This document shows, one piece after another, positions 4,172-63,642 of a stretch of 64,000 nt of DNA; position 1 is the stretch's first letter, and every line of letters begins with the position of its first letter. A model generated the notes under the pieces. It did not search any database and had not been told where the DNA came from. It saw only the letters and a list, made by a program, of their open reading frames with translations. The position numbers and the translations under genes are program-made. Source of the DNA: Chloranthus sessilifolius (lineage: Eukaryota; Streptophyta; Magnoliopsida; Chloranthales; Chloranthaceae); NCBI GenBank assembly GCA_021018995.1, contig CM037585.1, positions 68,760,646-68,824,645 on the forward strand, written 5' to 3'.

Positions 4172-6840
4172 TGTTGGTCGGATTTCAAACTGTTGCTATT
4201 TTATTAAGAACAGTGGAGAGAATAAATCCAGAGTGGAGATGTGGAGATGGGTCATTACAGCAAGTCTAAAACACACACAGTCCTGTAAGATACAGGGTCT
4301 ATTGTAGAAAGTTTTGATAAGTAAGAGTTTGTCTGACAGAGAAATTGATCAAGAACCCAAAATGAGCTATAATAGTAGACCTCCAGATCTGACAATCCTA
4401 AAGAAAGGGAGTTGGGTGTCTCGACTACATTAAATTAATCCTAAAAATAGAGAAATAAAATATAGCTCTATCCTAAAGAAAGGGTTAAGAGGAAGATGAC
4501 GGTAGTGTGTGCCAAAATAATATATAAAAATTATGAGAAGTAAGCAGGTCAAGCTAGAGTTAAATCAGTGATGTAACTTAGATTTAGTCTGTCTCTACAG
4601 TGTTTCTTGCTGAGACGCTATTAAAAGTCTCAACAAGGTAAAAATATCTGGTTTAACCCATACCATTTGGGGCGCTCTTAGGGCTATACTCTGTCCACTC
4701 TAATGGTCAGGGTATCTGATAGAGCCTGTCAAATCTCATTGGTTAAAACAATTGGTAATCTAACCCAGGGGAGTGGGCTGATCATTCCCCCAGCCACTGG
4801 GCCAGATCCAACCATGAATGCCATTGGAGCACTATGTAATGCTAGTGCTACAAGCTCCCCAGATTTGCCAACAGACCTGGCTGACATCCATAGGTATTCC
4901 AACCCATAAGATCCTAAGTGCTTTGCTAAGGCCAACTGCTTACTAGTGCCCACAAAAAGGACCATGCAACAGGTTGAATAAGACTTTAGATTTAGCTGGT
5001 CATTGCTACAAACGACCTGCAATGACTCAGCCTCAAGCTATAATTACTACAAAGAAATTAGATCTAACATCTGATGCCGGCTAGGTAAAACAGAGGGGAG
5101 CCAATTTCTATACAAACCTCCTCACAAGGCTCTAGAAGCTCATATGCAGGGGATAAGAATCTTTCTCAAACATGTGAATGGACATAACTTTAGGGCTATA
5201 CTCTTTCTACTTGAATAGTCACAGGATATCCCATTGGTCTGTCCATCCCACAGAGGCCTGAGAAAGAACATGAGAACTGCTGCAACCACCATGGTCCACA
5301 GGCCTCCGAGCTCTCTGGATCTCGCTACAGATCCAGCATTGCTTTCCATGGGGCTATTAAACCAAGAAAAATCAGATGGTAAATAATAGATCTACTAGAA
5401 ACTGAATGGGCTAGTCCCAAATAGATGGATCTTATAGACATCTAAAGAAACCATAAGATCTTTAGATTCAATTAGGCATTAAACGGCAATCCATTGATGA
5501 ATACAAAACTTATAATAAACTGTCTCCAGGCTGCAGCCTGTACACAACTGCTCATCCACAATCTCAATGTATACCAAAAACCTATTACAAGCTGAAATAA
5601 AACTAAACCTAGCTGCTTACAAGGGGTTAGCTAGCAAGTGCTGGGCTAAGAGAGAAGAAAAATAAGAAAAAGAGATGATCAAACCCTAACCCTAGCCTGC
5701 TGGAATTCTTCGCCGACAGAGGATGAAGGAAAGATAAAAATAATAAACTCTAAGTACACCTTATATACTCTGTCAAAATGGCCATGGCTCTAAGGAGATT
5801 AACCCTAATTTTTCTAGCAGACATGACACTTTTTCAACCCTTCGATGCCTGAAGATATGTGCCTCAAAATCTATGCCTCGAGAAGTGTGCCCTAGCCTTA
5901 GGAAATTCCTAAAAGGTCCTTGAGTTAAAACTGAGAAGTGGAGAGCCCAAGCTTCGCGGGGCTGGTATCTGCTTTTAGCTCATTCACGCAGCTGCTATGC
6001 CTTCGTGGAGTTGTCTTTGGCTGGTGAGAATTGCTTACTCACACAGTCATTCTTTAGTTCATCGCACAGTTCCTTTGCGCTGCCTTGCTATTGTGGAGAT
6101 GATCTGGAGTGCTAAGATTTCTCGCTTAGTTGAGCTTTCAGAAGCTCTCTCTCGCTAAGTACTTGCGTAGTTATACTCCTGCACTTGCGTAGTCAATGGT
6201 AAGGCTTCAGAGTGCATGAGATCTGCGCGAAGAGAATTCTGGGCGTCTCTCTCTTCTAGGGCTACGCGAGAACTTCGCAAGGTGACATTTTATTCAGTGT
6301 ACATATGGACTCGCTGTGTTCTTCGCGCGATTGCTTTGAGGCTTGATCTCCGTGAGAGCTTTGCAACCACAGATTCTAGGGACTTTAACCTGTGAGATCT
6401 TTGTGAGGTCATTTCAGCTGTCCTTCTGACTGTGTGATGTATTTGTACTAGGGCCTCTTCCTTTGCAACTTTAGCTTCGCGAGGAAGCTCCTCAACTCTA
6501 CAAGGTCTATCTTTTGCTGTTCTGATGCATTGCACTTCTTGTTGTCGCAGTCTCCTCTCTTCTCAGCTAACTTCATTCTTCTGCTAGACTTTGGTCAATG
6601 GTGATCAACAACAATGAGTCACCATGGTGAGCACTACCAAGGTGTTCCATTAGGCTTTGTCTGAGCTGTCATCTTTGAGTGTATTCTCTCTCTTTTGGGC
6701 CAAAAAGCAAGGAATTTATATTAAGCTGCACATTTTATTGTTAACTACAAAACACACTTAACAAATGATTATTAGTCTGCTTCAAGGTCCAGCAAAGGCT
6801 AAGTTAAGAGGTGAAAAGTGGTACCTTTCAGTGAATAACA
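4172..6840 (-). repeat. LTR shared by A1 (5' LTR) and A2 (3' LTR)
   Basis: Runs TGTTGGTC...AATAACA in plus-strand reading. A primer site lies directly left and a polypurine tract directly right, so it serves two internal regions. A minus-strand TATA box (GTATATAAGG, 5759-5768) is preceded on that strand by CpG-rich CGCG words at about 5950-6500. It is about 790 bases longer than the far A2 LTR (35016-36897), which lacks the part matching about 4240-4990. The terminal 60 bases of the two already differ by roughly one base in eight by eye, so they may not be sister copies of a single insertion. Confidence 0.8.
5759..5768 (-). promoter_or_regulatory. TATA box of the A1/A2 shared LTR
   Basis: Minus strand GTATATAAGG, followed by a leader and preceded (5950-6500) by the CGCG-word cluster. 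Confidence 0.6.
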
Positions 6841-6864
6841 CATACCCTACCACACCCCCAAACC
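6841..6864 (-). other. Polypurine tract of A2
   Basis: On the minus strand a GGTTTGGGGGTGTGG stretch abuts the LTR start TGTTATTC. This is the expected plus-strand primer site for the 3' LTR of A2. Confidence 0.75.
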
Positions 6865-7106
6865 TATGAGGAACAGTGTCGTCACTGTTTCAGAGAGAAA
6901 GAACATGGGTAGCAGGGTATATTTACAAAAAGAACACAATTAAAATAAAGACAGTACAACAGAATGAGAGTCAATCAAAACACAAATAAGAGATATAAAA
7001 AAGAAAATTTCATTCATAAAGCAGTAATATATATAATACAATTGACAAGGACAAAAGTTCCTAGAAATCAAAGAAATCCTAACTATCTACAATTACAAAT
7101 CTTCCT

Positions 7107-10106
7107 CAGCTGAATCTATATCTATGTGTTCTTGAACAACTTTTTCTTTTTTCCTTCTTGAGAGCAGCAGCTGTGGATCTTGATCTCTTAGCAGTGACCT
7201 TTCTTTGCTTTGTGCTGCTTCTTTTCTTGGGAGTGGGTGCAGGCTATGAAGAGGGTTCTTTGATTTTTACTCTAGGTGCTGATTTTTTGGGATGAGGAGC
7301 AGTTGCAGGGGGAGGAGTTGATGCAGTGTAGAGAGAGGCAGTTGTAGTTGCTAAGTCTCTGTCAACCATAGAAGATAGGGTCTGCTGTAATGCTGCAGTA
7401 GTCCTGACATAATCCTCAGCTCTCTCTTCTACCAGTCTAAGCACCTCATGAAGGTTCTTCACATTTTCTTCTAGCCCATCAGCTATGTACTTCTCCTATT
7501 GGTATAATTGCAAGGTCTTCCTCTAGCCCTGCTTCATCTTCTTTCTCTTCATCTTATGAGTCAATTTAAGCATCTTGATTTGATTGAGGAATGACTGCTT
7601 GATTGCTGTATTTATATCTGCCATCCCCTTGATCACATCCCTTCGGATGTATGGGTTCTCATCTATGGCTCTCTTAAGAGCTGCAAATGGTGGGGTGGAC
7701 AATGAGGAAGCATGAACCATTGCCCTCTTAGTTGGGTCCTCCATGCTGGGGTAGGGAATGGGTAAAGATGATGGAATGGGGAGGGTGGAGGTAGAGGGTA
7801 CTGACTGGGAGACTTCCTCTTCCTCAGGATCAGTTTGGGTGGCAATTGAAGAAGTAAAGGTCAACTCATCCACAGCTGTGGTAGCATCAACTTTAGTCAT
7901 TGCAGGTGAGGTAGGGAGCAGGACTAACAGTTCCTCTACTTCAGGTTGGATGGCCATCTCTCCTGTGGCTATGGCAGGCTCAGGTAGGGGTAAAATTGGA
8001 GGGGTAGGCTGTGGTAAGGGTAGTGATAAAGGTGGTTGAGTTATGGGGGCACGATTTTGGAGGGTTGAATGAATGGCTCGAAGGTTGGCCTCAATGGTTG
8101 TTTGGCTTTAGGTGTTGGCCATCATTTGGATTTAGAGGGAAAGAAGGAGGCTAAGGATTTGGGGTAGGGGGTCAGGTGTGGATTGAATGGCTTCTAGGCT
8201 GGTTTGAATGGTGGCCTGGTTTTAGGTGTTGGTTAAGAGTTGGGTTTGTAGGGCAGTGAGTAGGGTAAGGAGTTGAGGTAGGGAGTCTGAGATGATAGGT
8301 ACTGTGAGTTGAGTGGATTGGATTGCTTGAAATGGAGAAGTAGGTGCATGGTGGAAGATAGAAGGTTGAGGTGAAGTAGGGATTTGGGTGAATTTGGTTG
8401 GCTGGGGTGAATTAGGTAAAGGAGTAAACTCATACCTGATGTTCCCCAAAATGGAGTTCATCATAGTAGAGTACTCCTTAGTGGTGTATGGGTGGTGGTC
8501 ATGGGAATGGTCAAATGGTTCAAAGGTGGAGGGTTCTATGGGTTGAGTTGGATGGTCAGATTTGGGAATGTGGGGGATGTCAGTGAGTTGAGGCTCATTG
8601 TCATAATAGTGAAATGGAGAGGGTGGTGTTGGTGATGATGAGTGTAGATCAGTGGGTATGGGGTCTGGTATGGATGTTGTTTCTGGGATAGGAGTAGGCT
8701 GGGAGACTAGGATAGTTATGGTTTCAATGGGTATATATGTAGGTTGGGGTAAAGTAATGGGTATGGAGCTGGGGGTAAGCTCTCCTTTTGGTGTAGGTTA
8801 CTTTGACAGGTGGGCAGGGTATATGGGAAATGGTTGAGTAGGGGCTGCTGGTGTGAGGGTAGGCATGGACATAGGTATTGGTATAGGTATAGGGATGTAC
8901 ATAGCAGGGATGGTGGGCTGTGGGATAAGGAAGGGAGGTGTGGGCAAGGGTATGGTAGAGATATTAGCAGAGATGGTAGTAGCAGAGATATCAGCAGAGG
9001 TGGCAGCTGCAGAGGCTGAGGTAGCAGCTTTAGCTTCTTGGATGGTGGGGGCTGCTTGAGCCAACTACTCTTCCTTCTTTTTCTTCATCAGTTTATGGCT
9101 AATCCCCCATTGCTTCTTCCCACATTTACTAGGGGGCAAGTTCACTGTCTCCTCATTCATATGGAAATGGTATCCCCCTAGCTTCAGCAGAGTAGTGATA
9201 TGTCTGTAATAAGACAGGGCATGAGGCTTCTGCTTCTTCTTCACCTTCTCATGGATGCCCTTCATCCCCTCAAATATGATCCGGGCAGCATCAATGTAAT
9301 GGCCCAAGGAGAAGGAATAGAGGGCATCATCTATGGGAGCCCTTCTCTCTTGCTGGTGCCCAGAGTAGTAGACATTCTTCCTCAACACTCCATTCATAAA
9401 TCTTAGCTTGGATCCAAGTCCTTTTTTCTGATGGATATCCCAGATGCCGTAATCCCTCAAGTAATCTCCTTTACAATCTCTGGAATGGTGGCAGTCAATG
9501 GTGCTCCCAAGCCACACTTAGGGTTGTAGGTGGCTGGTATATCTAGGATTTCTGCTATCCCAGCTAGGTTTACTAGCATTTCAAAGATATCAATGAAGAC
9601 CAGCAGAGCAGGGTTTCCATCATCACCTGTCTTGACCCTGATGTTTTGATAGAACAGTTGCACTAGTCTAGGAATAATTAACTGCAAAGGGGGCTTGAGC
9701 AGGGGTAATAGAGAGGCCTTGGTTAGGAATTGAATGGATGCAATAGCTAAGGGTTCTTCCTCAAAGAATGCCTTATCAAAGGCAGTCTCACCCTCCAGTT
9801 TAATGGCAGTCACAAATTCAGAAGGAGTTGTCAGTGGATTGGGCTCCTCATCAACCTCCTTGCCCTTCTTCTGCTTTTTCTTAGATATCTTAGGGCTTTT
9901 GGAAACAGGGGGGTGGTCTTTGGCCCTCTTCTTAGGTGGTGATTTCTTCTTGTTAAAAGGGGCATCGGAGGCAGCAGCAGGCTCAATGGCCTCCACAGTG
10001 GCTGCCTCTGTAATCCTCACATACTTTCTTTTGGCCACAGATTGTCAGTTGGTTGAGGGTTCACCAAGGCTATTAGACTATCAATGAATTTGCAGCTCTT
10101 AGCCAT
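7107..10106 (-). pseudogene. ORF2 of A2: plant transposon protein domain plus Pro/Ser linker and basic tail
   Basis: The start ATG is at 10106 (MAKSCKFIDSL...). The domain lies at 10038-9065 in two frames, with PKKRAKDHPP, LVQLFYQNIRVK, LRKNVYYSGHQQERRAP and DALYSFSLGHY. Then comes a low-complexity Ala/Pro/Ser/Thr segment (about 9060-8000), a helical carboxy segment with YIRRDVIKGMADINTAIKQS (7670-7540), a coiled-coil-like stretch (7462-7350) and a lysine/arginine-rich end near 7110-7240. B ORF2 has the same order. Several frameshifts break it. The full protein would have been about 1000 residues, probably nuclear (inferred from the basic ends). The function is not known. Confidence 0.75.
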
Positions 10107-10732
10107 GGTTACACAGATTCTTAAAAAATTAGGTTTTGAAATTCAAATCTAAGGTAGCTCCCATTCCACTAAGGTTACACCACACAGACTCCTCGAAAAA
10201 CTCTAATCAAAGTAAAGGAACTACTAAAGGAAGATCACAGCTGGGGGAAAATAAAGTACTTACCCTTATAATCTAAGGTTTTAGTTGAAATGCTGCACAA
10301 TGAATCAAATCCCTCCACACCAAGTGCAAACTGGTTGGAAGCTGATGTGGAGAAAAGTGGTAGGAGTAGGGTGAATGTGTTTGAGTAGAATGAGCAATAA
10401 AGGGGAAAGAAGGTAAGGGAGAGCTCAGAGTGCGCACTGGAAGTTAGGGCAGAGAGATAGGATAATGAAAAATGAAAAAGTCACGGGGTATAAATGGGTG
10501 AAACCCGTGCCTCACGAGGTTCTCGCCAGGTAGTCGCTAAGCAGAGTACATCTCGCGCAACTGAAATGGAATCTCACGACAAGTATGTTTGCAGAGAAGA
10601 AAAGGCCTCGCGGGGTTCAATTTCAGTCACTCTTCAGGTGTTTCGCTCGTGAGGCTCTCGCGGAGATGCAAATATCATATCAGAGTCTTGCGAGCACACT
10701 GTATTTGCCTGAATTATGGCTCGTAGGGCTCA
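10107..10732 (-). promoter_or_regulatory. Spacer upstream of A2 ORF2, CGCG-word cluster (part 1)
   Basis: No gene. Bases 10107-10480 are an AT-rich leader. Bases about 10505-10700 hold many CpG words (CTCACGAGGTTCTCGCC, TCTCGCGCAACT, CCTCGCGGGG, CTCGCGGAG). The cluster continues after element B at about 28590-28650 (CGAGAAAG, ACTCGCGACGG). Elements A1 and B have the same kind of cluster in the same position. Confidence 0.55.
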
Positions 10733-10737: not shown

Positions 10738-12203
10738 TGTTGGGCTATTTTAAGTGCTTGCTACTGACTTTATTGGAGACAGTGATAAGAATGGGGTTAG
10801 TAAAAATAAATCAAAGGTGGATTAAAAACTAAGAGCAGCAAGCCTAAAAACACACAGTCCTGCAAGATATAGGGCCTGTCATAGCAAGTTTTAATAAGTA
10901 AGAGTTTGTCCCACAGGGAAAGTTGATCTAAAGCTCCAAGGGAGCTATCTTTAGTAGGCCCTCCAGATCTGGCTACAGATCTAGTAATCCTAAATGGAAG
11001 GGGATTTAAGGTCACTATTATCTAAATCCTAAGGTAACCTAATGCCTAAACTACAGAAATGGTTGAGAAGAATGATGGAGTGTGAGAAAATAAATATAAA
11101 AGGGTGAGAAGTAAGCTATTAGGTACATATCTGATGGGTCTTATAACTCATACTCAGATCTGCTGCTATAGAAATCTTGTCCAATGGCTACATTATCACC
11201 AAAGAGGAGAAATGATCCAACTCATCCCTGTGCCATGATCCAATCCCTTATGGCTATAACTTGTCCACTTAAATGGTCACAGACTATCCAATAGGGGAAC
11301 CACAATTCAGAGATGGGTCAGAACAAGTTTATCATTGTAGGCAATACTTCTTCCAGGCTACCAGCTCAAGAGTCCATAGGAACCTCAACCTCTAAATTTC
11401 TGAGTGTGGGGCTAGGCCTGCAATGTGCACTAGCCTGGACACACAGAACCAACAAGAGTTTGAGTACTAGCTTTTAAGCTTAGCTAGTTCACTGCTTTAG
11501 AAAGACAGCAGTGATCCAGTCACAAGCCTACAATCTCTACAGCCAGATTAGATAAGCCATTTGATGGTGGGTCTATACAAATACAGGGGAGTCTGTCTCT
11601 GCACAATCTCTCACAAGGCTACAAGCACAAGTGTAGAGAAGAAGGATCTATCTTAGATCTGTGGATTGGCCTCACCCTAGGGCTATAACCTGTCCACTTG
11701 AATGGTCACAAACTATCCATAGAGGCTATCCTCTTCACAGAGGTCTAAGACAAAACAAGAACATTGCTGCCACCACCATGTTCACAAGGCTACCAGCTCA
11801 AGCTCCCATGGGGATTCAGATTTAGTGGATCCTGTGGTGGGGCTACGCCTGCAATGTGCCTAACTTGGATACACAGGTCACTTGGATCTAAATAAAACCT
11901 TTAAGAACAATCCTTCATTGCTTACAATACAACTTAGCAATGGAGAATCTCAAGGTAGCAGCCTTGTACAGAGCAACTCTCAAGACACCAATCCCATACA
12001 TGCACAAAATCCTATTATATAACTCTATTAAAACTATTCCAAATAGACATACAAAGGCATAGTCAGCAAGTGCTGGACTATGGAGGGAAGAAAAAAGAAA
12101 CAAAGAAACTGCCTAAACCCTAACCTTAGCCTACTGTAATTCTATAGTTGGTTCCAAGAAGGAGTACAGAAGTCAAGTCATTTAAACCTAAACTAGGCTT
12201 AGG

Positions 12204-12211
12204 CTTATATA
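12204..12211 (-). promoter_or_regulatory. TATA box in the 3' LTR of B
   Basis: Minus strand TATATAAG, at the same place as 27580-27587 in the 5' LTR, which is the copy that would start the genomic RNA. Confidence 0.6.
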
Positions 12212-12389
12212 GCAGTCAGCTCTGTGATAATTAGGGTTAGGAAAACCCTAATTTATCAATGCTAATGTGGCCTATTTCTGTTCCTTAAATGCCTCGGGGA
12301 GTGTGCACAGAGATTGGCGCATTGGAGTGCGTGCCCTAGTTGTTGGAAGTTCCTAGATTACCCCTACAGAAGTGGGGAGAAGCTAAGAG

Positions 12390-12925
12390 CCCGAGCCTCG
12401 CTAGGTAGAAGGGCTTTCAGGTCTTATCACGTGATAGAATTGGCATCGCGGGGTTGATTTGACTTGAAGCTCTTGCAGTCACGAGATTGATACTTTGGTC
12501 ATCGCGGGAATGCTCTGGTTGTCGTGGGATTGCTCTTTTCATTTGAATGACGCGGGAATTACGCGCGCGGCTTGTTCCTTGATGGATCCCATGGCGATCC
12601 TCGCGAAGAAACAATGTGCATGGGCTTTTGGATCGCGCGAACAGTTCCTTGAAAGTTTGTATCCTGCGGCCACTGCGCGTATGAATGCCTGGAGCTCTCT
12701 CTCCTCAGTGAATCGCGTGAAGATTAAGGGCTCCTCTTTTGAGCTGTGCGAGACTGCGCGAGTACATCGCGAGCGCTTATGACTGAGCCTCGCGAGAACT
12801 GCACGAAGTATGCTTTTTACTCCCTTCTGTCATCAATCTATGCGAGAACGATGCGACCAGTTGGTGTGCTGCCTTCAGAAGCCCGCGATAACTACGCGAA
12901 GCATTCTTTCTGGTTTAATTGAGCC
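12390..12925. repeat. CGCG/CGCGAG word cluster in the B 3' LTR
   Basis: Dense CpG words such as TCGCGAGCGC, CCTCGCGAG, GCGCGCGG, CATCGCGGG and CTGCGCGAGG in sequence that is otherwise CpG-poor. Mirrored in the 5' LTR (about 27750-28310), where several words have decayed to TG or CA forms. Confidence 0.65.
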
Positions 12926-13188
12926 CTACAACATCTGCGCGAGGCTCACTTCTTAACTTGTTTCTGCTTTGCTGTGCCTAAGCTGTAGCCAATTCTATCA
13001 GGGTCTAACTTTCTTTCTCCTGAGGCGCTTCTAGGGCAAAAAGGTAAGCTTCTTGGCATGGTTAGGGCCTTATTTACAGCTGCTGCTTATTACCTACAGG
13101 ATAGACTTAAAACATATTTATTAAATGATTAAGGGTCTAACAGAGATTAAGTTAAGGGGTGAAAAGTGATACTTTTCAGGTCTTAACA

Positions 13189-15475: not shown

Positions 15476-16067
15476 ATACTTGGATGATGGAATATGAATC
15501 AACATATTAAAGTTTTGTCCCGTTCCAAGCATGGCAATAAATTGTGATTTCTCGGGGAGTGATAAATCGTGCAACTGAATATGGGAAAAGAGAGCTCACA
15601 CTAAATGATGGTCTTATTTTAGCCTTGGTAATTAAGGTGATCCCGTGTATCGCGCGGGGATCCTCGTGAAGAACAATATCTTGGGGTTGCAAGGTGGCGC
15701 ACACTAGGATATGGGGAATACTGCTTTGCTGGCTCTCATGACTTCGCGAGCAAATGATAAAACACTTTGATGCACACTGAGTCTAAAGAGCGGCAGTGCT
15801 AGTACTTTGCTCAAAATTCATCTCCCATGTGATGGACAAAGGTGAATAATATTAAGACTAATTAAAAAAATAAAAAATAAATAAACAAGCACACAAAACA
15901 GATATGGCACATAAATCAATATAAAAAAAAAAGAAAAATTCTATTAACTGAGAAGATATGTACAACTGTAATTACAATGAGAAGATAAGAAGGGAAAGGA
16001 AAGAAGAGCCTAAGTACAATCTATTCTAAGAGGAGGAGGAATCAGAATCTGAATTTGTAAACCAGTC
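15476..16067. promoter_or_regulatory. Spacer between B ORF2 and the short ORF
   Basis: Noncoding. It contains the CpG-word cluster at about 15620-15750 and AT-rich filler at 15850-15990. No ORF is supported. Confidence 0.5.
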
Positions 16068-19000
16068 CTAACCCATCTGTTTGGCATGTTTCCTCATTTC
16101 AGCTTTGCTCTCAGAACTGAGCTTGGACTTGGTTCTATCTGAGGGAGTTTTGATCTTTTTCTTCCTGGGGTTCTTCTCAGTTGGGCTCTTTTTCTTCTGC
16201 TGCCTTGGTTGCTTTGGCTGTGGGGGTTTATTAGTAGGAGGGATCATAGGAGATTTTCCTTTGTCTTCCTCAGTGGGGGCTACTGGGGACTTTCCTTTTG
16301 CTTTGGGCTCAGGCTGGCCAAGGGGTTTTGCCTCCTCAGACTGGGCAGCTGGCTCTTTACCAATTTTTATAGAGGCTGTTGTGTAAGCAGTCCTCTTAGC
16401 AGTAAATTTCCTCTATTTAGGATAAGATTGCTCAGTTGGAGGTGCAACAGGGGTTTGGGTAGGTGGGGGCTGCTTAGTAGGAGGTGAGGAAGGAGGGGCA
16501 CCCGGGGCCTTCCCTTTATCTGGTTGGGCAATTGGTTATGCCTCCTCAGACTGGGCAGCTGGGGTTGGGGTAGCTTTAGTCTCGAGTTACGGCATGCAGG
16601 ATAGAGTGGGGTGAAGGCTGTTGCGATTACAGCAACAACCAATGCAGCTTCCAATGAGGCTATCTGGATTTTGGCTTTGAGGAGGTCAATTTCATGGATT
16701 TCCTTTTGGAGTCCGAAGATCTCCTGGGCATTGTTGAGCCTCTTTTTAAAAAGTCTTGCTTTCATCTTTTCTGCAGCAGTGTTGGCTTTCTCCAGCTCCA
16801 GATTCAGATGATGATAAGCAGCTGTAGATTTGGCCTTCTCATAGGCCTCCAAGATGTTGGTCCACCCCAGGGAGATTCCTAGTAGTTGCTTTCTGTGGGC
16901 GTCCTTCATTTCATCAATCTGCTGTAGCAGGAGGGTCTCAATGGACTGTCGAAGTTGGGCCATGCCCCTCAGGACATCCTTCCTAAGGTAGAGATTGTCC
17001 CTCATGGCATGGAGGATGGTGAGGTAGGGAGGGATGTAAAAAAAATATTTGGTTGCATAGGCAGAGAGAAAGTGGAAGGAGCAAACTGTGATTGGTCCTG
17101 GGTGGGGGAAGTGGGGTGAACAGTGGGTAAGTCTAGTTGTTGGGGGAGATGTGAGTTCAGGTCTGCTTTGTCGTTGAATGTTGGAGGGTAGGATAAGAGG
17201 TGGGATGAAGGCATGGGGGAAAGAAAATGGGGTAGGCTCACTAGGAGTAGGGGGTGATGGGGAGGGAAAATGGAAATGGTGAAAGGTATGAAAGAAAATG
17301 GTGGGGTTGGTGGGATAAAAGGGAATGTGGGTGGTGAATGGGGTTGAGAGTTAGGGCTGGAGTCTTGGATGTGAGAGTCAGGGGAAAGGACCAGGGGGGT
17401 TGGAGTGGATTGTGGAGGGATGGGTGGGTTGGTTAATGTCTGTAGGGTGGATTTGATGGATGTGAGTTTAGTCTGCATCTGGTCTTGGGTGTGTGTAGTA
17501 GTGGATAGTTGGGATTGGATGTCTTGGATGAGGGAGAGGATGAGTGTCAGTGTGTATCGGCTGGGAGGTTGAGTTTGTGTAGAAGAGGGAACAAGTTGAA
17601 AAGGTGAGGAAGGGGCATGATGGAAAGTGGAGGGAGGAGGAGATTGAGGTTCTGGTGAGTGATGTGGTGATGTAATTGGAGAGTCTGGGAGGGGGGTGTA
17701 GTGGTTGGGCATTGTGTCAAGGAAACTAGCCATAAAGGCTTGGAATCCTGTGGTTGTGTTAAGGTTTAAGTCTAAGTCTGGGAATGGGGATGTAGTAGGC
17801 ATGGAAGGGGTGGTGTCTTCTTCAATGTGATGTGTGTCAGTGGGGATAAAATGGATTGTGGATGGTGTCTGGGAGATGGTGGGGGTTGTCTCAGTGGTTT
17901 TCCTTTTCTTGTAGGAAATGAGTGGAGGGCTGTCAAGTTTATGTGAAGATGATGGGGGTATTAGGGCTGTGTATTGAGGTAGGGTAGGGGATGGTGAGGA
18001 GCTGACATGGGGGGTGGTGTCCTCCCAGGTACCAATCATAGGTGAAGGGGGTGTGGGGATGGATAATGAAGACAAAGGAGTGTGGAGAGAGATAGAATAG
18101 GGGTAGGAGATGTTGGAGATGTGGTGGCTGCTGCAGTAGTGGTGGTGACAGGCTCTGGAATCTCCTCTGTGGCCTTGTAACAGCTGCCTCTTCAGATTGC
18201 TTGGAAAGGGCCTGAGTCTCAGCCTTCTTTTTCTTCTATGCTTCCATCAAGCTTCTGCTGATTCCCCATTGCCTCTTGGCAAAAGTAGTAGGGGCAAGGA
18301 TGGTAGTCTCCTTAGTTTTTGCTATCTTGTACCCCCCCTTATTAGCAACTTGGTGATGACTCTGGCATTGGGGAGTGTGTGTGGCTTCTTGTTCTACCCC
18401 AATTTCTCCATCAGATCCTTCATTGCTTCGGACATTAACTAGGCGACATGGAAGCCATGGCCCATAGAAAAAGAATAGACAGCATCAGCAATAGGAGCTC
18501 TCCTCTCATGCTGATGGCCTGAGCAATAGATGTTCTTTCTCAGGACCTGGTCAATGAAAAGGAGTCTAGGCTCCAACTTACTTCTTCTGATAGAATCCCC
18601 TGAGGCCTTTAATCCTCTAGTCAAAGCCCTTGCAATTGTATCAATTAAGACACTCAGTGGGGGCCATATCCACAGCTAGGGTCAAATGCGGCTGGGATGC
18701 CCAATACCTCTGCAATCACCTTGGGACTAACTAACATGTCGAAGTCATCAATCAACACCAGGAGTCCTTCCTGTCCATCATTATCCTTGGTGACCCTGAT
18801 GTGCTGGTAAAAGAGTTGCACTAGCCTAGGGTAGGCTAGTGCTGGTAATCCTTTCATCAATGGTGTCAGGCTAGCCTTGCTCATGAATTGAATGGCAGGA
18901 GCAGAGAGAGGCTCCTTCTCAAAGAAGGGCAGGTCGAAAGATGTCTCAGGCTCCAAGGGGATTGAAGCCATGATCTCGGAGGGTGTAGAAAACTCAGGGG

Positions 19001-19130
19001 TTGGATCCTCCACCACCTCAACCACTTCCTTCCTTTTTTTCTGTGCCTTTGAAGATTTGACCTTCTTAGCAGCGGGCTCAACAGGGGCCTTATCCTTGCC
19101 CCTTTTCTTTTGTGCACTCTTAGGGGCCAT
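16068..19130 (-). pseudogene. ORF2 of B: plant transposon protein domain, P/S/T linker, coiled coil, Lys-rich tail
   Basis: The ATG is at 19130 (MAPKSAQKKRGKDK). Residues about 10-50 are strongly basic. The domain runs from about 18960 to 18440, with YPRLVQLFYQHIRV, LLVLIDDFDMLVSP, VLRKNIYCSGHQHERRAP and DAVYSFSMGHG. A Pro/Ser/Thr-rich, likely disordered stretch follows (18075-17005). Next come YLRKDVLRGMAQLRQSIE and a long heptad-like coiled coil (16970-16640), and finally a Lys-rich end (KKKSPTEKNPRKKKIK) stopping at 16068. Frameshifts near 18640, 18100, 17000 and 16370 break it. About 1020 codons in total. There are no membrane helices, which argues against a simple envelope protein. Confidence 0.75.
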
Positions 19131-19440
19131 TCCAAACTCTACCTTTGAATATGAGAAATGGGGACTAAGATTTGAGTGCTTACCCTAAAATTGTAGGGTT
19201 TGGTTCGATCTGTCACATAGGGCACCGCAAGATCTCTAAGCAGAGAGCAATAGATGGGGGTGATGCTAGGAACAAATCTGTAGATTCCTGGTGTGAATGA
19301 TGGGTTGTAGGATCGATGCTGGAGGAGAGAGGGAGAAGAGTGCCGGAAGCTAGGGATTCACTTGATGAAGAAGGAAGCGAGAGTACTAGAAAGGGAGACA
19401 AGCGCGGGGTTAAAATACTTGTCTCTAAGCTTGGCGTGCT
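19131..19440 (-). promoter_or_regulatory. Putative 5' leader of B ORF2
   Basis: Pyrimidine-rich leader on the minus strand (TCTCCCTTTCTAGTACTCTCG, TTCTCCCTCTCTCC). A possible leader intron with GGTAAGCAC donor near 19188 and AAAGGTAG acceptor near 19141 would lie just before the ATG. A weak TATA-like GTATTTTAA sits near 19412. This is inferred from composition only. Confidence 0.35.
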
Positions 19441-19835
19441 GTGGAATATTTGGTCACGGGATTGGAAGTGAAACCTAGCGAAGTTGCTATTCAACTTGGA
19501 TTGTGCAACAATCTCCCAGGTTCACCTTGGACCGCGCGACAACATGTGAAGAATTCCATGTGAAATGCGCGAGAGGCTCTCAGGCCTCCTTTCGGATTGC
19601 GTGAAAGGCTCTGAGGTTCACTTTGAATCTCGCAACAGCTAATGAAGTATTCCTTTTGAATTGCGTGAGAGTCTCCCAGGCTTCCTGCTGAACCTCGCGA
19701 CAACTAGTGAAATGCTCTATTTAGATCGCGCGAGAGGTTCCCAGGTTTACTTCAATCTCACGATAGCTATTGAATGGTTCTATGTGAACTGCGCGAGAGT
19801 CTCTCATGCCTCCTTTTTAACCTAGCAACAACAAA
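19441..19835. repeat. Tandem CGCG-rich repeats upstream of B ORF2
   Basis: About five imperfect units, 60-90 bases apart, each with a GCGCGAGAG/GCGTGAGAG half and an AACCTCGCGACAAC/AATCTCGCAACAGC half (anchors near 19532, 19624, 19694, 19755 and 19820), separated by CCCAGG(T/C)TT-like text. The CpG words match those in the B LTR. Confidence 0.7.
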
Positions 19836-36897: not shown

Positions 36898-36902
36898 AAA
36901 AG

Positions 36903-42129: not shown

Positions 42130-42141
42130 ACAAATTCTATA

Positions 42142-42275: not shown

Positions 42276-42535
42276 ATCGGGTTTTGGGTTATTTCTTTTA
42301 AAGGGCTGAAACCCCCAATTTCTATCATTTTCAAGATTTCAAGCCTAAAGACCGTCCCTTTTCTCTCCTCTCCTGTGAAGAACAAGGTGCTTCTTCCTTT
42401 CAAAAACCTATGATTCTTCGTGTTTCATCCAACGAGACTCACGAATCGACGTGCATGCGCCTCCGTCAACTAGGGTTCCACGTTTTGATCTCCACGCCGC
42501 TCAAATTTCTTCTCGTTTCAAGTTAATTCCTATGT
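42276..42535 (+). promoter_or_regulatory. Putative leader of E ORF2
   Basis: CT-rich, leader-like sequence (CTTTTCTCTCCTCTCCTGTG near 42358) between the palindromes and the first plausible ATGs. TTCTTTTAAAG near 42293 is a weak TATA candidate. Confidence 0.35.
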
Positions 42536-44626: not shown

Positions 44627-45912
44627 TGTTGGTACGCGCTTTTTCTGGGTCCCTTTCGGTCCCTTGGAAGAGTGGCCCAATTCGGTCCAAGTGGACTATG
44701 GCAAAGGTGGTGTTTTTAGAGGTAATTAAATACTGAAAATGAAAAGGTAAATCTCAGGAAAATATCTGGTTCATTGCAATCGCCAGCTGTAGATGTTTAA
44801 CAATGCTACAACACGTCACTGATCAAGCCTTTCGAGGTGGAGATATGGGTTGTTCTCTTTACTGAAGCATAGGTCGGCCGATGTCAGCAGCACTGGGTCG
44901 CCTGTAAGTTTAGTTACGCTAGTTTTCCTAATTCTATTTTAACTACTTTTCCTTTTCTATTCTTGCTATGACTTGCTTAATTTACTTAATATTGTCAGGG
45001 ATTTAATTAATTTTAATCCTATCAGGAGTCTAACTAATTTAAATATTTTACTCCTATTAGAAATCTAATTAATTAAGCCTCCTAATCTCACTAGGAATGC
45101 AAATATGCTAATCCTAAGAAAATTAATTAGGAACATACTAATTCTATTGAAACTCTAATTAATTAAAATATACTAATTCTATTAAAATTCTAATTAAAGT
45201 AAATACACTAATTTTACTGAAAATCTTAAAAAAAGGGGTTTTGGCCCGCTATGCTAAGGAGGATCGGTCCTGTTCTCGGGTACCCTCCATAAGCTCCCTT
45301 GGGCAAATCGGTTGGCTAGGGATTATTTTAGTAATAGTGTGGATTGAAAAATTGATTTTTATTCTGAAATTATGGATTTACGGATCGAAAATTAAGGATT
45401 TTGAGAATCAAGTTAAAAATTAGAGCTAAAACTTTAGAACAAAAAATGGAAATTCTAAGGCTGATTTTAAGACTGAAATTAAGGATTGGTTCTAATAACT
45501 AGAATCAGAAAATTAGAAAATTAGAAATTTAGATTAAAACTTAAGATCTAAGATCTAGAATTAAAGAACTAGGAGGCTAGAACCTAAATCTAGAACTAAA
45601 ACTAAAAAAGGAAGAATTGGTTCTAGAACCAGAGAACTAGAACTAGGGAAAAAAGGTAAGAATTAAGGATTAAAGAGATTTAAAATCTAAGATTTAAAAC
45701 TAAAAGCTTAAGAACCTAAAGCCTAGAACTAATAATCTAGAACTAAGGACTAGAATTAAGAACTAGAACTAGAAGAATTAAAAACTAGAAGGAAAGTATA
45801 CCTGAGGCCAGGGCCGCAGAGAGAAATCGTGAAATCCTAAGCTTGAAAGTAAGGAACTCGAGAGAGAGAAATCTGGGTCAAAAATTGTGCGTTGAGTTGT
45901 GGTGGTGGGTCC

Positions 45913-45920
45913 TATTTATA
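45913..45920 (-). promoter_or_regulatory. TATA box of the D LTR
   Basis: TATAAATA on the minus strand. CTCTCGAGTT follows about 57 bases downstream, at nearly the same distance as in the antisense ORF promoter at 49369. Confidence 0.7.
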
Positions 45921-45924
45921 GATA

Positions 45925-46505
45925 TTTGGCCAATTGCACGCCCTATGGGGTGCGCTCAATTGGTCGGTGAATTTCAATTATGCTTTGTGTCTAGTGCGCA
46001 CAATTGAATTATGCGCCCTGTATCAGGCGCACAAACACTTCGAGTTGGTGACTGACTCAGTGAGTGACCAGCTGACTGGCTCAGTCGGGTACCATAGTGC
46101 TAGTCTAATTAGACTAATTGCATGTGTAGTTTAGTACGCACAATTAATTAAGCACCTGAATTCACGCGCTTAATAGGGAATTTTTGGCGGTCTAGGGAGT
46201 TAGAGGCGAGGTTTGCTTAGGAACCAATTATACGCCTGTGCGGAGGCACATAATATGATTGCATGCTCTAGGTAGGGTGTATAATCCTGTCTTAGGCAGT
46301 TTTAGAAGGGTAGAAGGCCAGTCCAAAATGGACTAATTGTGCACTGGGTATAAAGCGTGTAATATGATTATGCGCTCCTGAGAGGGCGCATAATCAAGGT
46401 CTTAGGCGGTCCTCAGGAAGTGAAATCTTGGTCCAAGAGGGACCAATTGTGCACCAGCCATGGGGTGTGCAATCGAGTTATCCATGCTGTACGGGGCACA
46501 TAATT
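45925..46505. repeat. ATTGYGC / GCRCAAT palindrome cluster in the D LTR
   Basis: Paired words such as CAATTGCACGCCC with GGGTGCGCTCAATTG, GTGCGCACAATTG with AATTATGCGCCC, CAGGCGCACAA, TTATGCGCTCC with GGGCGCATAATC, and CAATTGTGCACC with GGTGTGCAATCG. Each pair forms a small stem of about 10-13 bases. Confidence 0.75.
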
Positions 46506-48944: not shown

Positions 48945-49340
48945 CGATGGGTTGAGTGCGAGTGATTATGAGATTAGAGAGGTGATTGCGCGTTACTGTA
49001 AGCGTGTGCAATGTCATTATGCATGTTACAGACAGCGTGCAATTGAAGCATCACAGGGCGGCAGAGTGGAGGTGTTCGACTCGAATTCCATGCCTGAGTA
49101 TCAACGTGTAATCTTATTATGCACTATAGTCTTTGTGCATAATCGGAGCGTCGCTAGGTTACCCTGCGGGTGTCCCTTTGGATTCCGCACAGTAATAGGG
49201 ACGTAGAATTTCATTATGCGCAAGATTAGTTGCACGTAATATTTTTGTCGGGATTGTGTACTGGCGAAAGTTCAATTGCACGCCCCTTGTGATTGCATTT
49301 AAGCGTTGCTATATATGCACATAATTTTATTGCACATTTC
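48945..49340. repeat. ATTGYGC palindrome cluster upstream of the D antisense ORF
   Basis: ATTGCGCG, GTGTGCAATG, TTATGCATG, GCGTGCAATTG, TTATGCACT with TGTGCATAATC, TTATGCGCAAG, TTGCACG and CAATTGCACGCCCC: the same word set as in the D LTR. Confidence 0.7.
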
Positions 49341-49368: not shown

Positions 49369-49376
49369 TATAAATA
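49369..49376 (+). promoter_or_regulatory. TATA box of the D antisense ORF
   Basis: TATAAATA on the plus strand, directly after the palindrome cluster, followed by a CT-rich leader with CTCTCGAGTT about 55 bases on, as in the D LTR promoter. The two promoters therefore look homologous but point in opposite directions. Confidence 0.65.
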
Positions 49377-51533: not shown

Positions 51534-53011
51534 TGGTTGATCTTGTTATGTATATTAAAATTATGTTTAAACTCAAGTCTTAACCTATTGTAAGCACACA
51601 ATGGAAATCATAGTACTAGCATAGGATCGTTCCCACGAGGAGGTTTATTTAGCTAATTACTTCTTATCTATTTCTTCTATTTAAATTCTTATCTTAAAAA
51701 CTTCTATTTACCTTTAAGATCTAATCTACTAGAGAAATATGAATAAAAGAATGGTTTCTAATCTAAAGTGCATAAAATAAATCTAAAGTTTCCTTCTTCA
51801 GATTGGGTCGTCAATCCCAATCTTCAGCTATCGAATATTTATGAAAGTAAACGGTACCGTTACACCATATCTCTAGTTTCTTAGCATTAGTCGTCAATCA
51901 AGTCTAAGATCCTATCAATATAGATTTAATCTAATCAACAACTTCCTAAAATCTGGGCGTCAATCAAACCTTAGAAAACTGAAGATAGAAAAGTAAAAAC
52001 CGTTACACTAATCTGCAAATTCTAACCTGAGTTGTCAATTCAAATTAAAACTTGGAGATGTTTGCAAAGCTGTAAATAAAAGAAAATAAAATCCCAACTA
52101 GAAAGCAAATAAATATATCTTTCACCCCTCAACCGCAGTCGTCAATTGCTTCTGAGAAACTAGGATATCTACACTAATCTTCAGCATTCAATTGCAGTCG
52201 TCAATTGCTCTTAAGAAACTTTTGATATCTAATCTACTCTAACTATTATACACTACTTTGATTGGAAGAAAATCCAACCTTAGGCGTCAATTGATGCTGA
52301 AATTCTTCAATTTTTATTCCAATACCAAGCTCTCTTATTTATAGATCATAAGGATTCGGTTTACAAAGACTTCTAATTGTAATAAAAGAAACTACTAAAA
52401 ATAAAAGATTCCTAATTAAACTCTAATTCCTAAGTTTTCTTTCCTTGCTTAGATGGTAGATGTGCTTCTAGATTGTTCTCCTTTATTTAAGCAACCGAGA
52501 TTTCCTAAAGCTTATCTTCATCAATCTTCTCAGATCCGTGATTCACCAGACTTCTAATCTTATATATCTTCTAATTTTGTTTATGGCGGTATAATATGTA
52601 TGTGATCAACAACAACAACAACAACAGGAAAGCTTCTTTTCTGGGAAATCGCAAATCATAATTTCTCATTTTCTTCTTTTTTTTAGAAAATTGTTAAATA
52701 ACAATTTTCTATCTTTCATAGCTTCCTCAATTGATGATTCTCTGAATTACAATTTTTTGCTTTTCTTCTTTTTTATCTCTTTTTGTAGAATCGTAAATTA
52801 CGATTCTTTGACTTTTAGTAGGTGAAAAATGTCTTTTTTGTTCAATCGTATTTCTTATTGCCTTTTGAGTTTATTTTGATGAATATTAATACTTTTACTC
52901 TATTTCTTTGGTTATCTCTAATATCTGTATATCATCAACTTGTTAGTAACAAACTATGGCCTAGCATCACAATGTTAAGCATGATAAAATGGTAAATTAT
53001 GTGACTGATCA
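51534..53011 (-). repeat. 3' LTR of element C
   Basis: TGGTTGATC...ACTGATCA. TATAAATA on the minus strand at 52336-52343, with AATCG-type palindromes upstream (52640-52806), including the 19-base GAATCGTAAATTACGATTC (52788-52806) and AAATTGTTAAATAACAATTT near 52688. A CAA microsatellite is at 52607-52627. Confidence 0.9.
52336..52343 (-). promoter_or_regulatory. TATA box in the 3' LTR of C
   Basis: Minus strand TATAAATA; counterpart of 62967-62974. Confidence 0.65.
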
Positions 53012-53166: not shown

Positions 53167-55333
53167 TGTGACAGCCCGAATTTCGGCGTCCCGAAATCCG
53201 TGCCATCAGCACGACTTTCAAGGCCGTGCCCTGGGTCCTTTGCAACACAAAGATATATGCAAGCCAAAACTGAAATTGAAGCACACTTAGCTACCCTAAA
53301 TCGAAATCTCAAAATAATATATTTGGTCTCGCAAGGCTGTCCTTGTCCCATGCCAATTCATGGACATAAGGACATACCCAAATTTTAAATGATAATTATT
53401 CATCCTAGATGTTTAATCAAGAGACAGAAATTAAAGCATTCGAAATAGAGAGGCTCGATATACCAAGCCATACATAATACTCTCTCAACTCACTCTCAGA
53501 GTATGCAGCGGGTTTCCTAGAAGAATTCCTCGGGAGGAGGTTCCGACTCTTCTGTGGCCACGAACACCGAGGCCCTTGGATTAACTTCTCCCGAAGTCTA
53601 TGCTGCCGCTAGTCCTGGACCTGCGATGTATAGTCTAAGGGGTGAGCTACATCCTAGCTCCGTAGGGAAAACAAAAGAACATATAGATCATCCTTCACAC
53701 ATATGTCAAGAATCTAACCAAAGATAGAATTTTCAAGAAATCACTTATGTACCACAATTTGAGTAACAGGAATAACCCAATGGTTCCGACCAATACTTAG
53801 CATATTTTTGTTTATTTTCCTTATAGGTTTGGTTGTGAATTTGGCCTAATCACTTAAATCTTAACTTAAGTAGTCCTCGAGCAATATAGCATCGAGCCCC
53901 GATGGAATACCCGCCATCGTCGTCTAACTAGACAGTTGTTGTGTGTATTCCCTGGGAATACTGCCCGAGCCCCTTTCTCATAGGCGGCGGGATCTATTCT
54001 CAATCTACATCCCTGGGATGTGTTATAAATGTACGGATTGGCCGCCGTACCGGTCACGGATATCCTGCCGAGTCAGTCGTGGGTATCCCGCCACGTCGGT
54101 GGGGTATTCTAATCAACCTTAAATAATAAAAATATCAATGTGCTTTACATATAGTTATTCACCGTGATTGTGCTAAATATATTACATTAGGCCTTATCAT
54201 GTTACCCTTGTTTCTCTTTTTGTTTTCTTACGCATCCCTGGGATGCCACTTGCTTCTATTGTATTTCTCGTCCCCTGGGGACCTCAGGATTTTCCACATT
54301 GTAACACACACACACACCCTTATCATGAGGGTTTATGGAATATACACTATTTACATAGACTATACTACGCATATGAGTTCACAGAATAATGCACATGTTT
54401 CGAGAATATTCCCTACCTCGACGAATCTCAAGGCACGCCTGCTCGTGGAGGGTTATAATGCATCAACCTACATTTAAAAAATAGTTTTAGAACGATCTAA
54501 GGTCATTGGGGTGTATGACTCCCAAGTTTCTTATATTAGAAAACCAAGATCTGAGTGGTCACCAGACCTCGCTCGCGCGGCCATTTATCCTCGCTCGAGC
54601 GGTCACTTGACCTCGCTCGAGCGGTCTCTTGACCTCGCTCGAGCGGTCAAATCGAGATCGCTCGAGCGGTTAAATCGAGCTTTCGAATTATACTGTGGAC
54701 CCTCGCTCGAGCGAGCTCCCCTTTAGTTTTAGGGACCGCTCGAGCGAGCCCAGAGTCATACTTTTCTCTGTTCATCCTCGCTCGAGCGAGCCTTTTTAGA
54801 CCGCTCGAGCGAGGAACAATGATTTGTCCCTCGATCCGATCGAGAACAGATTTCCATCCACTTTTTTTTTCTAATCTCATACAAGCAACATTTATCCAAC
54901 ATCTTTCCTACTATTCAAAACATTCCTAGGCATCTATCATGTTTTTAACGTACCTCTAACGATGAATCACGCACAGGTCCGATTTATGATTTGAATATCT
55001 ACTAGGCTATCCGGCCTCCCTGGTTCTTCCTCCCGTCATTTCCTCTGATCTCCTTTGCCGACCTAAGTCTCAACGAACCCTAGTTCTCTACCAGGCTCTT
55101 TTCTTCATTCTCTCTATATTCTCCTTCTCTCTATTTAGGTTAGAATAGAGTTACGTAAAGGTTTCTCTCTCTCTCTCTCTTTCACTTTTATATCTAAAAG
55201 TTAGGGATATACTAGTGTGTTTCCCATGTACACACTTAATGTGTTTTCGGTCGTTTTGGTCTCCTTGTGAAACACATATACCTATGTGTGTATGCGTGCC
55301 GTGCACTCATCTCAAAAATCTGCGGTTGTGACA
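53167..55333 (+). mobile_element. F: solo LTR of another gypsy family
   Basis: 2167 bases, TGTGACAGCCCG...GGTTGTGACA, flanked by exact GTTGT duplications (53162-53166 and 55334-55338). No internal region, so it arose by LTR-LTR recombination. The TGTGACAGCCC start and CT-rich, AACCCTAG-bearing leader-like text near 55080 suggest a plus orientation. A CT repeat lies at 55161-55182. It contains the GCTCGAGC palindrome array (54567-54814). Confidence 0.9.
54567..54814. repeat. GCTCGAGC palindrome array in solo LTR F
   Basis: Eight copies of the self-complementary core GCTCGAGC plus one variant (GCTCGCGCGG) in 250 bases, flanked as CTCGCTCGAGCGG in the left half and CTCGCTCGAGCGAG or CCGCTCGAGCGAG in the right half. 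Confidence 0.95.
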
Positions 55334-55338
55334 GTTGT

Positions 55339-57812: not shown

Positions 57813-57876
57813 AATCGTAATCACTACGATTATACGCTGGGGAGAGCTTCGTTCAAGAAATCGTACTTAGTACAAT
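57813..57876. repeat. AATCGTA-type palindromes upstream of the C short ORF
   Basis: Seven-base arms AATCGTA/TACGATT at 57813-57831 and an imperfect second stem at 57858-57876. Confidence 0.65.
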
Positions 57877-61863: not shown

Positions 61864-61903
61864 ATTTAAATTGAAAAGAAATATTTTTTATATATGTATT
61901 GTA

Positions 61904-61922
61904 TATATATATATATATTTCT
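61904..61922. repeat. TA microsatellite
   Basis: Short TA run in the C leader. Confidence 0.85.
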
Positions 61923-62139: not shown

Positions 62140-62157
62140 TCCCCGACAACGACGCCA
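62140..62157 (-). other. Primer binding site of C (tRNA-Asp type)
   Basis: Minus strand TGGCGTCGTTGTCGGGGA, differing from the complement of the plant tRNA-Asp end at about two bases. Confidence 0.9.
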
Positions 62158-62163
62158 AAAACT

Positions 62164-63642
62164 TGGTCGATCTTGTTATGTATATTAAAATTATGTTTAA
62201 ACTCAAGTCTTAACCTATTACAAGTACACAATGGAAATCATAGTACTAGCATAGGATCGTTCCCACGAGGAAGTTTATTTATCTAATTACTTCTTATCTA
62301 TATCTTCTATTTAAATTCTTATCTTAAAAACTTCTATTTACCTTTAAGATCTAATCTACTGGAGAAATATGAATAAAAGAATGGTTTCTAATCTAAAGTG
62401 CATAAAATAAATCTAAATCTTTCTTCTTTATATTGAGGTTGTCAATTCCAATTTTCGGCTATCGGATATTTATGAAAATAAACAGTACCGTTACACCATA
62501 TCTCTAATTTCTTAGCATTGATCGTCAATCAAGTCTAAGATCCTATCAATACAGATTTAATCTAATCAACAACTTTCTAAAATCTGGGTGTCAATCAAAC
62601 CTTAGAAAACTAAAGATGGAAAAGTAAAAACTGTTACACTAATCTGTAAATTCTAACCTGAGTCGTCAATTTAAATTAAAACTTAGAGATGTTTACAAAG
62701 CTATAAATAAAAGAAAATAAAATCTAAACTAGAAAGCAAATAAATATATCTTTCACCCCTCAGCCGCAGTCATCAATTACTTCTGAGAAACTAGGATATC
62801 TACCCTAATCTTCAGCAGTCAATTACAGTTTTCAATTGCTCTTGAGAAACTTCTGATATCTAATCTACTCTAACTATTAGACACTATTTTGATCAGAAGA
62901 AAATCCAACCTCAAGTGTCAATTGATGCTGAAATTCTTCGATGCTTATTCCTATACCAAGCTCTCTTATTTATAGATCATAAGGAGTCAATTTACAAAGA
63001 CTTATAATTCTAATAAAAGAAACTACTAAAAGCAAAATATTCCTAATAAAACTCTAATTCCTAATTTTATCTTTCCTTGCTTAGACGGTAGATGTGCTTC
63101 TGGATTGTTCTCCTTTATTTCAGCAACCAAGATTTCCTAAAGCTTATCTTCATCAATCTTCTCAGATTCGTGATTCACCAGACTTCTAATCTCATATATC
63201 TTATAATTCTATTCATGGCGGTGTAATATGTACGTGATCAACAGCAACAACAACAGTAGGAAAGCTTCTTTTCTGGAAAATCGCAAAGCACAATTTCTCA
63301 TTGTCTTCTTTTACTTAGAAAATCGTTAATCATAATTTTGTATCTTTCATAGCTTCCTCAATTGACGATTCTCTAAATTATGATTTTTCTCTTTTCTTCT
63401 TTTTTATCTCTTTTTGTAGAATCGTAAATTACGATTCTCTGGCTTTCAGTAGGCGAAAAATGTCTTTTTCATTTAGTTGTCTTTTTTATTGCCTTTTGAG
63501 TTCATTTTGATGAATATTAACACTTTTACTCCATTTTGCTGGTTATCTCTAATATCTACACATCATCAACTTGTTAGTAACAAACTATGGCCTAGCATCA
63601 CTAAGTTAAGGGTGACAAAATGGTAAATTATATGATTGATCA
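62164..63642 (-). repeat. 5' LTR of element C
   Basis: 1479 bases, TGGTCGATC...ATTGATCA. TATAAATA on the minus strand at 62967-62974. GAATCGTAAATTACGATTC is conserved at 63419-63437, with related AATCG words from 63278. Confidence 0.9.
62967..62974 (-). promoter_or_regulatory. TATA box of the C genomic RNA promoter
   Basis: Minus strand TATAAATAAGAGAGC, about 300-460 bases downstream of the AATCG palindromes on that strand. Confidence 0.65.

Follow-up and report, generated by a model that had tools for sequence, protein, structure and literature searches.

Matched arrays of family-specific words in the long terminal repeats and upstream of the accessory genes of plant LTR retrotransposons

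Several of the long terminal repeat (LTR) retrotransposons stacked in a 64,000-nucleotide stretch of the Chloranthus sessilifolius genome (assembly GCA_021018995.1, contig CM037585.1, positions 68,760,646 to 68,824,645; hereafter the window) carry arrays of short words in their LTRs and again in front of an accessory open reading frame (ORF). The window, from a genome of 2.17 Gb in 32 contigs, is a nested stack of elements designated A0 and A to F; a further family, G, comes from elsewhere in the genome. A preliminary description of the window had proposed that each family owns a short palindromic word, placed alike in all of them, which the accessory protein or another dimeric factor reads as a promoter or anti-silencing code. 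Matched arrays do exist, and very probably they have a function; it is likely that they bind a dimer, and plausible that this dimer is the accessory protein itself.

The main evidence comes from a test in which words were learned at one place and counted at the other. Each LTR stretch, on its own, supplied its four most enriched 6-mers (200 dinucleotide shuffles), and these were then counted in the pre-ORF segment of every family against 500 shuffles, giving 64 family-by-family cells; the learning stretch for D and E was the putative LTR called in the preliminary description, and the segment limits of G were chosen after its array had been seen. The predicted enrichment over shuffled controls is found, as LTR-learned words recur before the family's own accessory ORF in six of eight families (p<=0.004): 5 against 1.0 expected in A (p=0.004), and 7 against 0.9 in B, 10 against 2.0 in D, 8 against 0.6 in E, 33 against 1.6 in F and 42 against 1.0 in G (p=0.002 for each). 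Off the diagonal, p falls below 0.05 only within the block of related elements A, A0 and B, where the segment before ORF2 of A0 is enriched for words of A (p=0.004) and B (p=0.036), and in the crossings from A to F (p=0.012) and from E to F (p=0.002), which arise because the half-site CTCGC is shared. Blind scans miss most of the words: exact 7-mers (at least 6 per 500 bp) return only F and an AGAACTA/TAGTTCT repeat at 45.2-46.1 kb, and 10-mers with 2 mismatches are too noisy to isolate words, so a targeted, LTR-learned test is needed.

The proposal that the word of the LTR returns in front of the accessory ORF is borne out by full copies of F and by the new family G. Within the window F consists of an LTR only (53167-55333, minus strand), sitting inside the internal region of C; its array of eight CGCTCGAGCG (54592-54811, minus strand) has the eight GCTCGAGC originally described, exactly, at 54593-54803. 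Each of 30 fetched F copies has 5-8 exact GCTCGAGC sites (two of these counts include one site distant from the array), and in all three full-length copies fetched a second array directly follows pol (L039, 9248-9426; L041, 9043-9220; L043, 9136-9334), with 5, 5 and 8 exact GCTCGAGC mostly in 22-bp steps. In the same three copies a TATA box (CTATAAATA or CTATAAAAA) lies 9-10 bp past the internal array, and an intact accessory ORF of 418-432 amino acids comes after it. F matches RVT_1, Retrotrans_gag and, in one copy, the chromodomain PF00385 (27.3 bits, cut-off 25.1) in Pfam; because pol bears this integrase C-terminal chromodomain, F belongs to the chromoviruses (Ty3/gypsy), and it carries its accessory ORF on the 3' side.

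Family G was found by a search of the genome with the Transposase_32 profile (PF20167; 13,855 candidates, 150 scored, 30 loci returned). The 30 loci form two groups (27 and 3) with the same word, of core CGGACGTCCG, which stands before the ORF in 29 of them and again about 1 kb after the domain in 25. In one copy the downstream cluster lies in an apparent 3' LTR, after a purine tract recognized by eye, and is followed by the TATA box CATATAAATT. One copy has a Ty1/copia pol (RVT_2, E-value 2.1e-68), and in one copy several tracts of the GGGGGAG type can be picked out by eye, candidates for comparison with the multiple polypurine tracts that precede the 3' LTR in Sireviruses. The 1.5 kb upstream of the G loci hold 0 or 1 CTCGC/GCGAG, one locus having six downstream; the rule that CTCGC accompanies Transposase_32, drawn from A, B, E and F, is ruled out by G, which carries CGGACGTCCG instead.

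Family D provides the sharpest geometry. The words ATTGYGC and GCRCAAT given for it in the preliminary description are the halves of one 28-bp dyad, ATTATGCGC-N10-GCGCATAAT, present at offset 19 as six degenerate copies in the putative LTR (45977-46394, strand unassigned) and three before the ORF (49116-49325, plus strand). The remaining offsets from 9 to 35 yield one in the putative LTR and none before the ORF, and window positions 1-45800 have none at offset 19. Genome-wide there are 376 exact dyads at N10, against 5 over N0-N9 and 25 over N11-N40, where several displayed N40 matches prove by eye to be two adjacent dyads read across; the chance level, from mononucleotide composition, is about 0.03 sites per spacing, and reversed-pattern controls give 0, 1 and 4 sites. 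Among the matches listed, the N10 spacers vary widely in sequence, some being near-repeats of one another. A fixed spacer length combined with differing spacer sequences is the pattern expected of a rigid dimer site. The internal array is followed by a TATA box inside CTATAAATA (49369-49375, plus strand), the region before the ORF has at least 40 genome copies at 77-85% identity, and the ORF pieces scanned match neither Pfam nor TRP28. Dyads sometimes stand back-to-back, about 30-31 bp apart (among the matches listed, for example window 46336/46367). Other repeats crowd the same region: an AGAACTA/TAGTTCT array at 45251-46125, beside or inside the putative D LTR and absent from the preliminary description, reaches 8 per 500 bp, TAGAACTAAA occurs 17 times (up to 2 mismatches) within it at 45401-45800, and AATCTAATTA repeats are dense at 44801-45400 (11-13 per 400 bp, up to 2 mismatches).

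The remaining elements show how far the claim of one palindrome per family can be taken. A0, A and B are by their layout what we take to be Athila-like elements, the family name being our assumption; C, whose pol is similar to theirs at the DNA level, is grouped with them on that likeness. The CGCG and CTCGCG/CGCGAG clusters claimed for A and B are found in the LTRs and before ORF2, but they fall short of full palindromes: what recurs is CTCGCG, in either orientation, and the palindrome CTCGCGAG occurs once only (12789). In A0, A and B the density of CTCGC/GCGAG is 5.6-7.2 per kb upstream of ORF2 and 2.2-5.9 per kb in the LTRs, against 0-0.3 per kb in the gag, pol and ORF2 segments. On the minus strand, the arrays before ORF2 lie at 1588-1855 in A0 (CTCGCG words), 10515-10690 in A and 19533-19830 in B, where CTCGCG words in steps of about 32 bp, many alternating in orientation, accompany repeats of about 64 bp. 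LTR words, also on the minus strand, cluster at 5955-6483 in A0 (LTR 4172-6842, limits inferred from likeness to the A and B LTRs), at 35997-36549 in the A 5' LTR (35022-36900, limits approximate), and at 12447-12943 and 27857-28288 in the B 3' and 5' LTRs (10738-13188 and 26116-28576). A cluster said to precede the short ORF of B (15620-15750) is not supported, the place having three CGCG, with one CTCGC/GCGAG in 1323 bp. E has two exact CTCGCTGTAGCGAG in its putative LTR, within an otherwise degraded CTCGC-TGTA-GCGAG array (38512-38664, plus strand); the exact 14-mer is missing from the array before ORF2 (42166-42273, plus strand), but the learned words are enriched there. In C the word AATCGTA/TACGATT is present in both LTRs and internally, as claimed, but is weak and fails the LTR-learned test. 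There is one AATCGTA-N3-TACGATT per LTR (52789-52805 in the 3' LTR, 51534-53011; the homologous dyad 63420-63436 in the 5' LTR, 62164-63642), and similar AATCGTA..TACGATT dyads at 57813-57870 are followed about 43 bp on by ATATAAAAGG, all on the minus strand; because the LTRs are copies of each other, their two dyads amount to one independent site. The words thus differ between families, but they are not strictly each family's own, the half-site CTCGC being common to A, B, E and F. Helical phasing of about 10.5 bp, which fits F and the pre-ORF arrays of B and E and not G or the pre-ORF array of D, is left unclaimed because tandem duplication confounds the spacings.

What stands behind the internal arrays? 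Transposase_32-like ORFs follow them in Athila-like, chromovirus and Copia elements. Measured against the curated cut-off of 45 bits for PF20167, G scores above it (65.1) and F (34.1; second copy 30.9), A0 (25.6) and a piece of B (12.5) below, and the ORF2 pieces of A and E give no Transposase_32 match. The post-pol ORF2s of A0 (261-1223), A (first open piece 9457-10044) and B (first open piece 18654-19184), all on the minus strand, are mutually alignable, and a protein database holds no ORF2 homologues at E<=0.001. Word and protein seem to vary together across the four families on which this comparison rests: the homologous F and E ORF2s (E at 42539-43114, plus strand) are 35% identical in BLASTP (E-value 6e-28) and both families have CTCGC-N4-GCGAG; F and the Athila-like A ORF2 are 30% identical (8e-11) and the half-site is kept; and G, whose accessory protein has no significant direct BLASTP match to that of F, has an unrelated word.

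Further signs of function come from promoter sequences and from sequence constraint. The motif TATAWAW, sought within 60 bp after the internal array and compared with shuffles, is found in C, D and F, that is, in three of eight families (shuffle mean 0.148, p=0.001). When motif windows and control 10-mers having at least 2 CpG are held to the same intactness criterion, the eight F windows are intact at 0.92 against 0.83 for controls (p=0.04) and the five G windows at 0.77 against 0.58 (p=0.002); a pairwise-rate comparison in F and G, strongly favourable to the words, was set aside because its motif columns had been picked by intactness. Comparing the LTR pair within a single insertion isolates post-insertion changes, and across three F insertions CpG transitions affect 4/81 positions in words against 32/208 elsewhere (p=0.016). 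This difference, small and confined to CpG, gives a hint that the sites may be less methylated, an outcome that anti-silencing would produce. When LTR stretches are aligned with the pre-ORF array of the same family, B yields no matches and D and E only 13-15 bp.

Together, these observations lead us to favour, with modest confidence, a model in which a dimeric factor couples the LTR with an internal promoter, the accessory protein being the most likely factor. The arrays would be binding sites of a dimeric, sequence-specific DNA-binding factor, one in the LTR and a second, of the same word, directly upstream of the predicted internal promoter of the post-pol accessory gene. Since the same sites stand at both places, a single factor could control genomic RNA and accessory gene jointly. 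The candidate would be the Transposase_32-like ORF2 in A, B, E, F and G and the unclassified ORF in D, and the outcome a self-reinforcing activation or anti-silencing loop. The dimeric part of the original proposal draws support from the invariant 10-bp spacer of D and from the lack of any bias preserving RNA pairs, binding as such being a prediction; the promoter part is supported by the TATA boxes after the internal arrays of three families but not at the LTR arrays, where G alone has a close one. From sequence we infer that the sites bind a dimer, that the internal promoter drives transcription, and which factor is involved. A wider reading can be put forward tentatively, at rather less than even chances: that the "envelope-like" ORFs would be self-regulators and not envelope proteins, and that gene and word would move between lineages as a module, the word changing as the protein diverges. 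On this reading the Transposase_32-like proteins of the Copia Sirevirus-like family, the Athila-like elements and the chromovirus would bind DNA as dimers and be expressed from an internal promoter bearing the family-specific dyads of the LTR.

Several results count against the coupling model. In the LTR-learned test C has 2 words before its ORF against 0.9 expected (p=0.23), and A0 has none of its own LTR words before its ORF2 against 0.8 expected. No second LTR copy was found for D or E, whose LTR calls are those of the preliminary description. In A0, A, B, E and G no TATAWAW follows the internal array within 60 bp, and among the LTR arrays examined G's is the only one with so close a match; the motif lies 188-236 bp from the LTR arrays of A0, B 3' and C 3', and does not occur within 260 bp of those of E, F, A, B 5' and, on either strand, D. 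CpG transitions at words and elsewhere number 6/21 and 18/35 in B (13/34 and 11/22 with a looser word) and 3/6 and 15/23 in C, both small samples, and non-CpG changes are no rarer in words than elsewhere in F (2/108 against 75/5695), B (3/25 against 131/2292) or C (12/85 against 94/1328). Stretches of up to 41 bp in F and 22 bp in G are common to the LTR array and the internal one, so copying has contributed to the match. On the protein side, PDB returns nothing for the A0 ORF2 at E<=1 and only two chance-level tail matches for the F ORF2 (E-values 3.6 and 5.6), and the structure predicted for ORF2 from four window sequences is too poor (predicted local distance difference test score, pLDDT, 41.5) to show a DNA-binding fold.

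Could the words be read by the host instead? Host transcription factors might bind them as ordinary enhancer boxes recruited to both places while the accessory proteins act otherwise, an explanation that we hold to be unlikely, though one to be taken seriously. Repeated, sometimes palindromic boxes are common in the cis-regions of plant LTRs according to the available part of one account (PMC10760457), core sites of stress factors are listed within Sirevirus motifs (PMC2829016, in part), and CTCGC is common to A, B, E and F even though its pol places F among the chromoviruses, apart from the Athila-like A and B. A shared factor should give shared words, however, and within this one genome the words of D and G are unrelated to CTCGC; Transposase_32-like ORFs, too, lie downstream of arrays in Athila-like, chromovirus and Copia elements alike. 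That the arrays work as RNA hairpins, as small-RNA precursors or packaging signals and not as DNA sites, seems highly improbable. The palindrome clusters of maize Sireviruses are small-RNA hotspots with predicted secondary structure (Bousios 2016, as reported in citing papers), but in the degraded sites here G-U mismatches show no clear excess over A-C (6:8 in D, 8:6 in F, 31:28 in G), so nothing points to RNA pairing; moreover, the halves of the D dyad keep a constant distance, N10, across spacers of differing sequence, the internal arrays of C, D and F lie upstream of TATA and outside the presumed accessory transcript, and the A/B words are mostly not dyads. Similarly improbable is a functionless by-product of tandem duplication and template switching in which CpG-rich words are conspicuous by composition, since the 64-bp repeats of B, the common flanks of the F and G arrays and the ordinary rate of non-CpG change between LTR pairs are outweighed by the 376 exact D dyads of fixed geometry and differing spacers, by the better preservation of sites than of matched controls in F and G, and by the family-specific recurrence before the ORF in the LTR-learned test.

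The closest precedent for the coupling model lies in the Sireviruses, which the preliminary description did not name. In the available part of their study of these Ty1/copia elements, Bousios et al. 2010 (PMC2829016) report 13 elements whose LTRs contain palindromic repeated motifs; these motifs are CpG-rich, in high copy, largely family-specific and situated upstream of the LTR TATA box. The motifs recur before the ENV ORF in nine ENV-bearing elements (Table 3) and most are distinct in sequence, OPIE-2 and PREM-2 having one in common; a hypothesis of an internal promoter for ENV is cited there. The architecture of an array in the LTR and another before the ORF is therefore already published for Copia Sireviruses, and what is new here is its presence in Athila-like elements, a chromovirus and family D; the open-licence literature, so far as its text was available, gave no other description of gypsy elements with matched LTR and pre-ORF arrays. 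Compared with the Sirevirus pattern, F and G have palindromic boxes at both places, the LTR and the region upstream of the env-like ORF, A and B have the placement with a half-palindromic word, D and E have it if their LTR calls are right, and C and A0 fail the word test. Among the elements assigned to a lineage, a Ty1/copia pol occurs in G only, A, B and C being Athila-like and F a chromovirus of Ty3/gypsy. The published cores are CGG-CCG except in Tnd-1 (PMC2829016, in part); only G (CGGACGTCCG) conforms, resembling a Sirevirus element in sharing its core with the published Usier box GTCGGACGTCCGAC, whereas the cores of A to F are different, among them CTCGC, ATTATGCGC and AATCGTA. D also differs in its rigidly spaced dyad and in an ORF called antisense in the preliminary description.

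Sireviruses are thus a nearer parallel than the VANC anti-silencing proteins of VANDAL elements that had been invoked. That comparison holds for an element-encoded accessory protein and for short family-specific motifs that gather in noncoding parts of the element itself (PMC5735166, in part), but fails on palindromy and on element type. The VANC motifs, YAGTATTAY and AGTTGTCC/AC, are not described as palindromic, the string "palindrom" being absent from the text (PMC5735166), and VANDALs are DNA transposons of the Mutator-like (MULE) type, unlike the present elements with their LTR pairs and reverse transcriptase or gag matches. An anti-silencing role of the present accessory proteins would be a prediction. 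Foamy virus Tas, as covered by the accessible text of PMC8670036 and PMC4929722, is likewise one accessory transactivator acting on an LTR and an internal promoter; it belongs to an animal retrovirus and is a proven factor, unlike the predicted one here. A Retand antisense protein has predicted DNA binding, and for the antisense accessory ORFs of Retand and Grande the available part of the source reports no LTR-matched palindromic word (PMC11963269); the D ORF pieces, as noted, lack TRP28. Excerpts of PMC11728184 describe an Athila ORF that is Transposase_32-like and has a predicted nuclear signal, as well as Tekay elements with 5' ORFs, and an Athila6A internal promoter is mentioned in PMC4977677 (in part).

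The layout of the stack completes the description. Element A is interrupted by B, its 5' LTR lying above the insertion and its ORF2 running downward from 10044; the two LTRs of B are 92.7% identical, and pieces of A and B match RVT_1, Retrotrans_gag or rve in Pfam. A0, a third copy beside A and B, lacks much of pol: at 261-4177 gag-like DNA and ORF2 are kept. In E (41776-43114) the protease runs directly into the array and then ORF2, and both A0 and E appear to be deletion derivatives that retain array and accessory ORF. GC skew is strong over the ORF2 regions of B (0.46 at 16001-18000) and A (0.35 at 8001-10000), where long open frames overlap on one strand, and the pol region of A contains a tandem duplication of about 99 bp (29637-29834, 97% identical).

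The role of the extra "env-like" genes in plant LTR retrotransposons is a long-standing question, being called unproven in one source (PMC2829016) and unknown in another (PMC11728184), each available in part. A family-specific word common to the LTR and the accessory gene makes binding of the protein to its own word directly and cheaply testable. If the protein does bind it, a large class of plant mobile elements would have matched regulator-and-site systems, with consequences for escape from silencing and possibly for the rewiring of nearby host genes.

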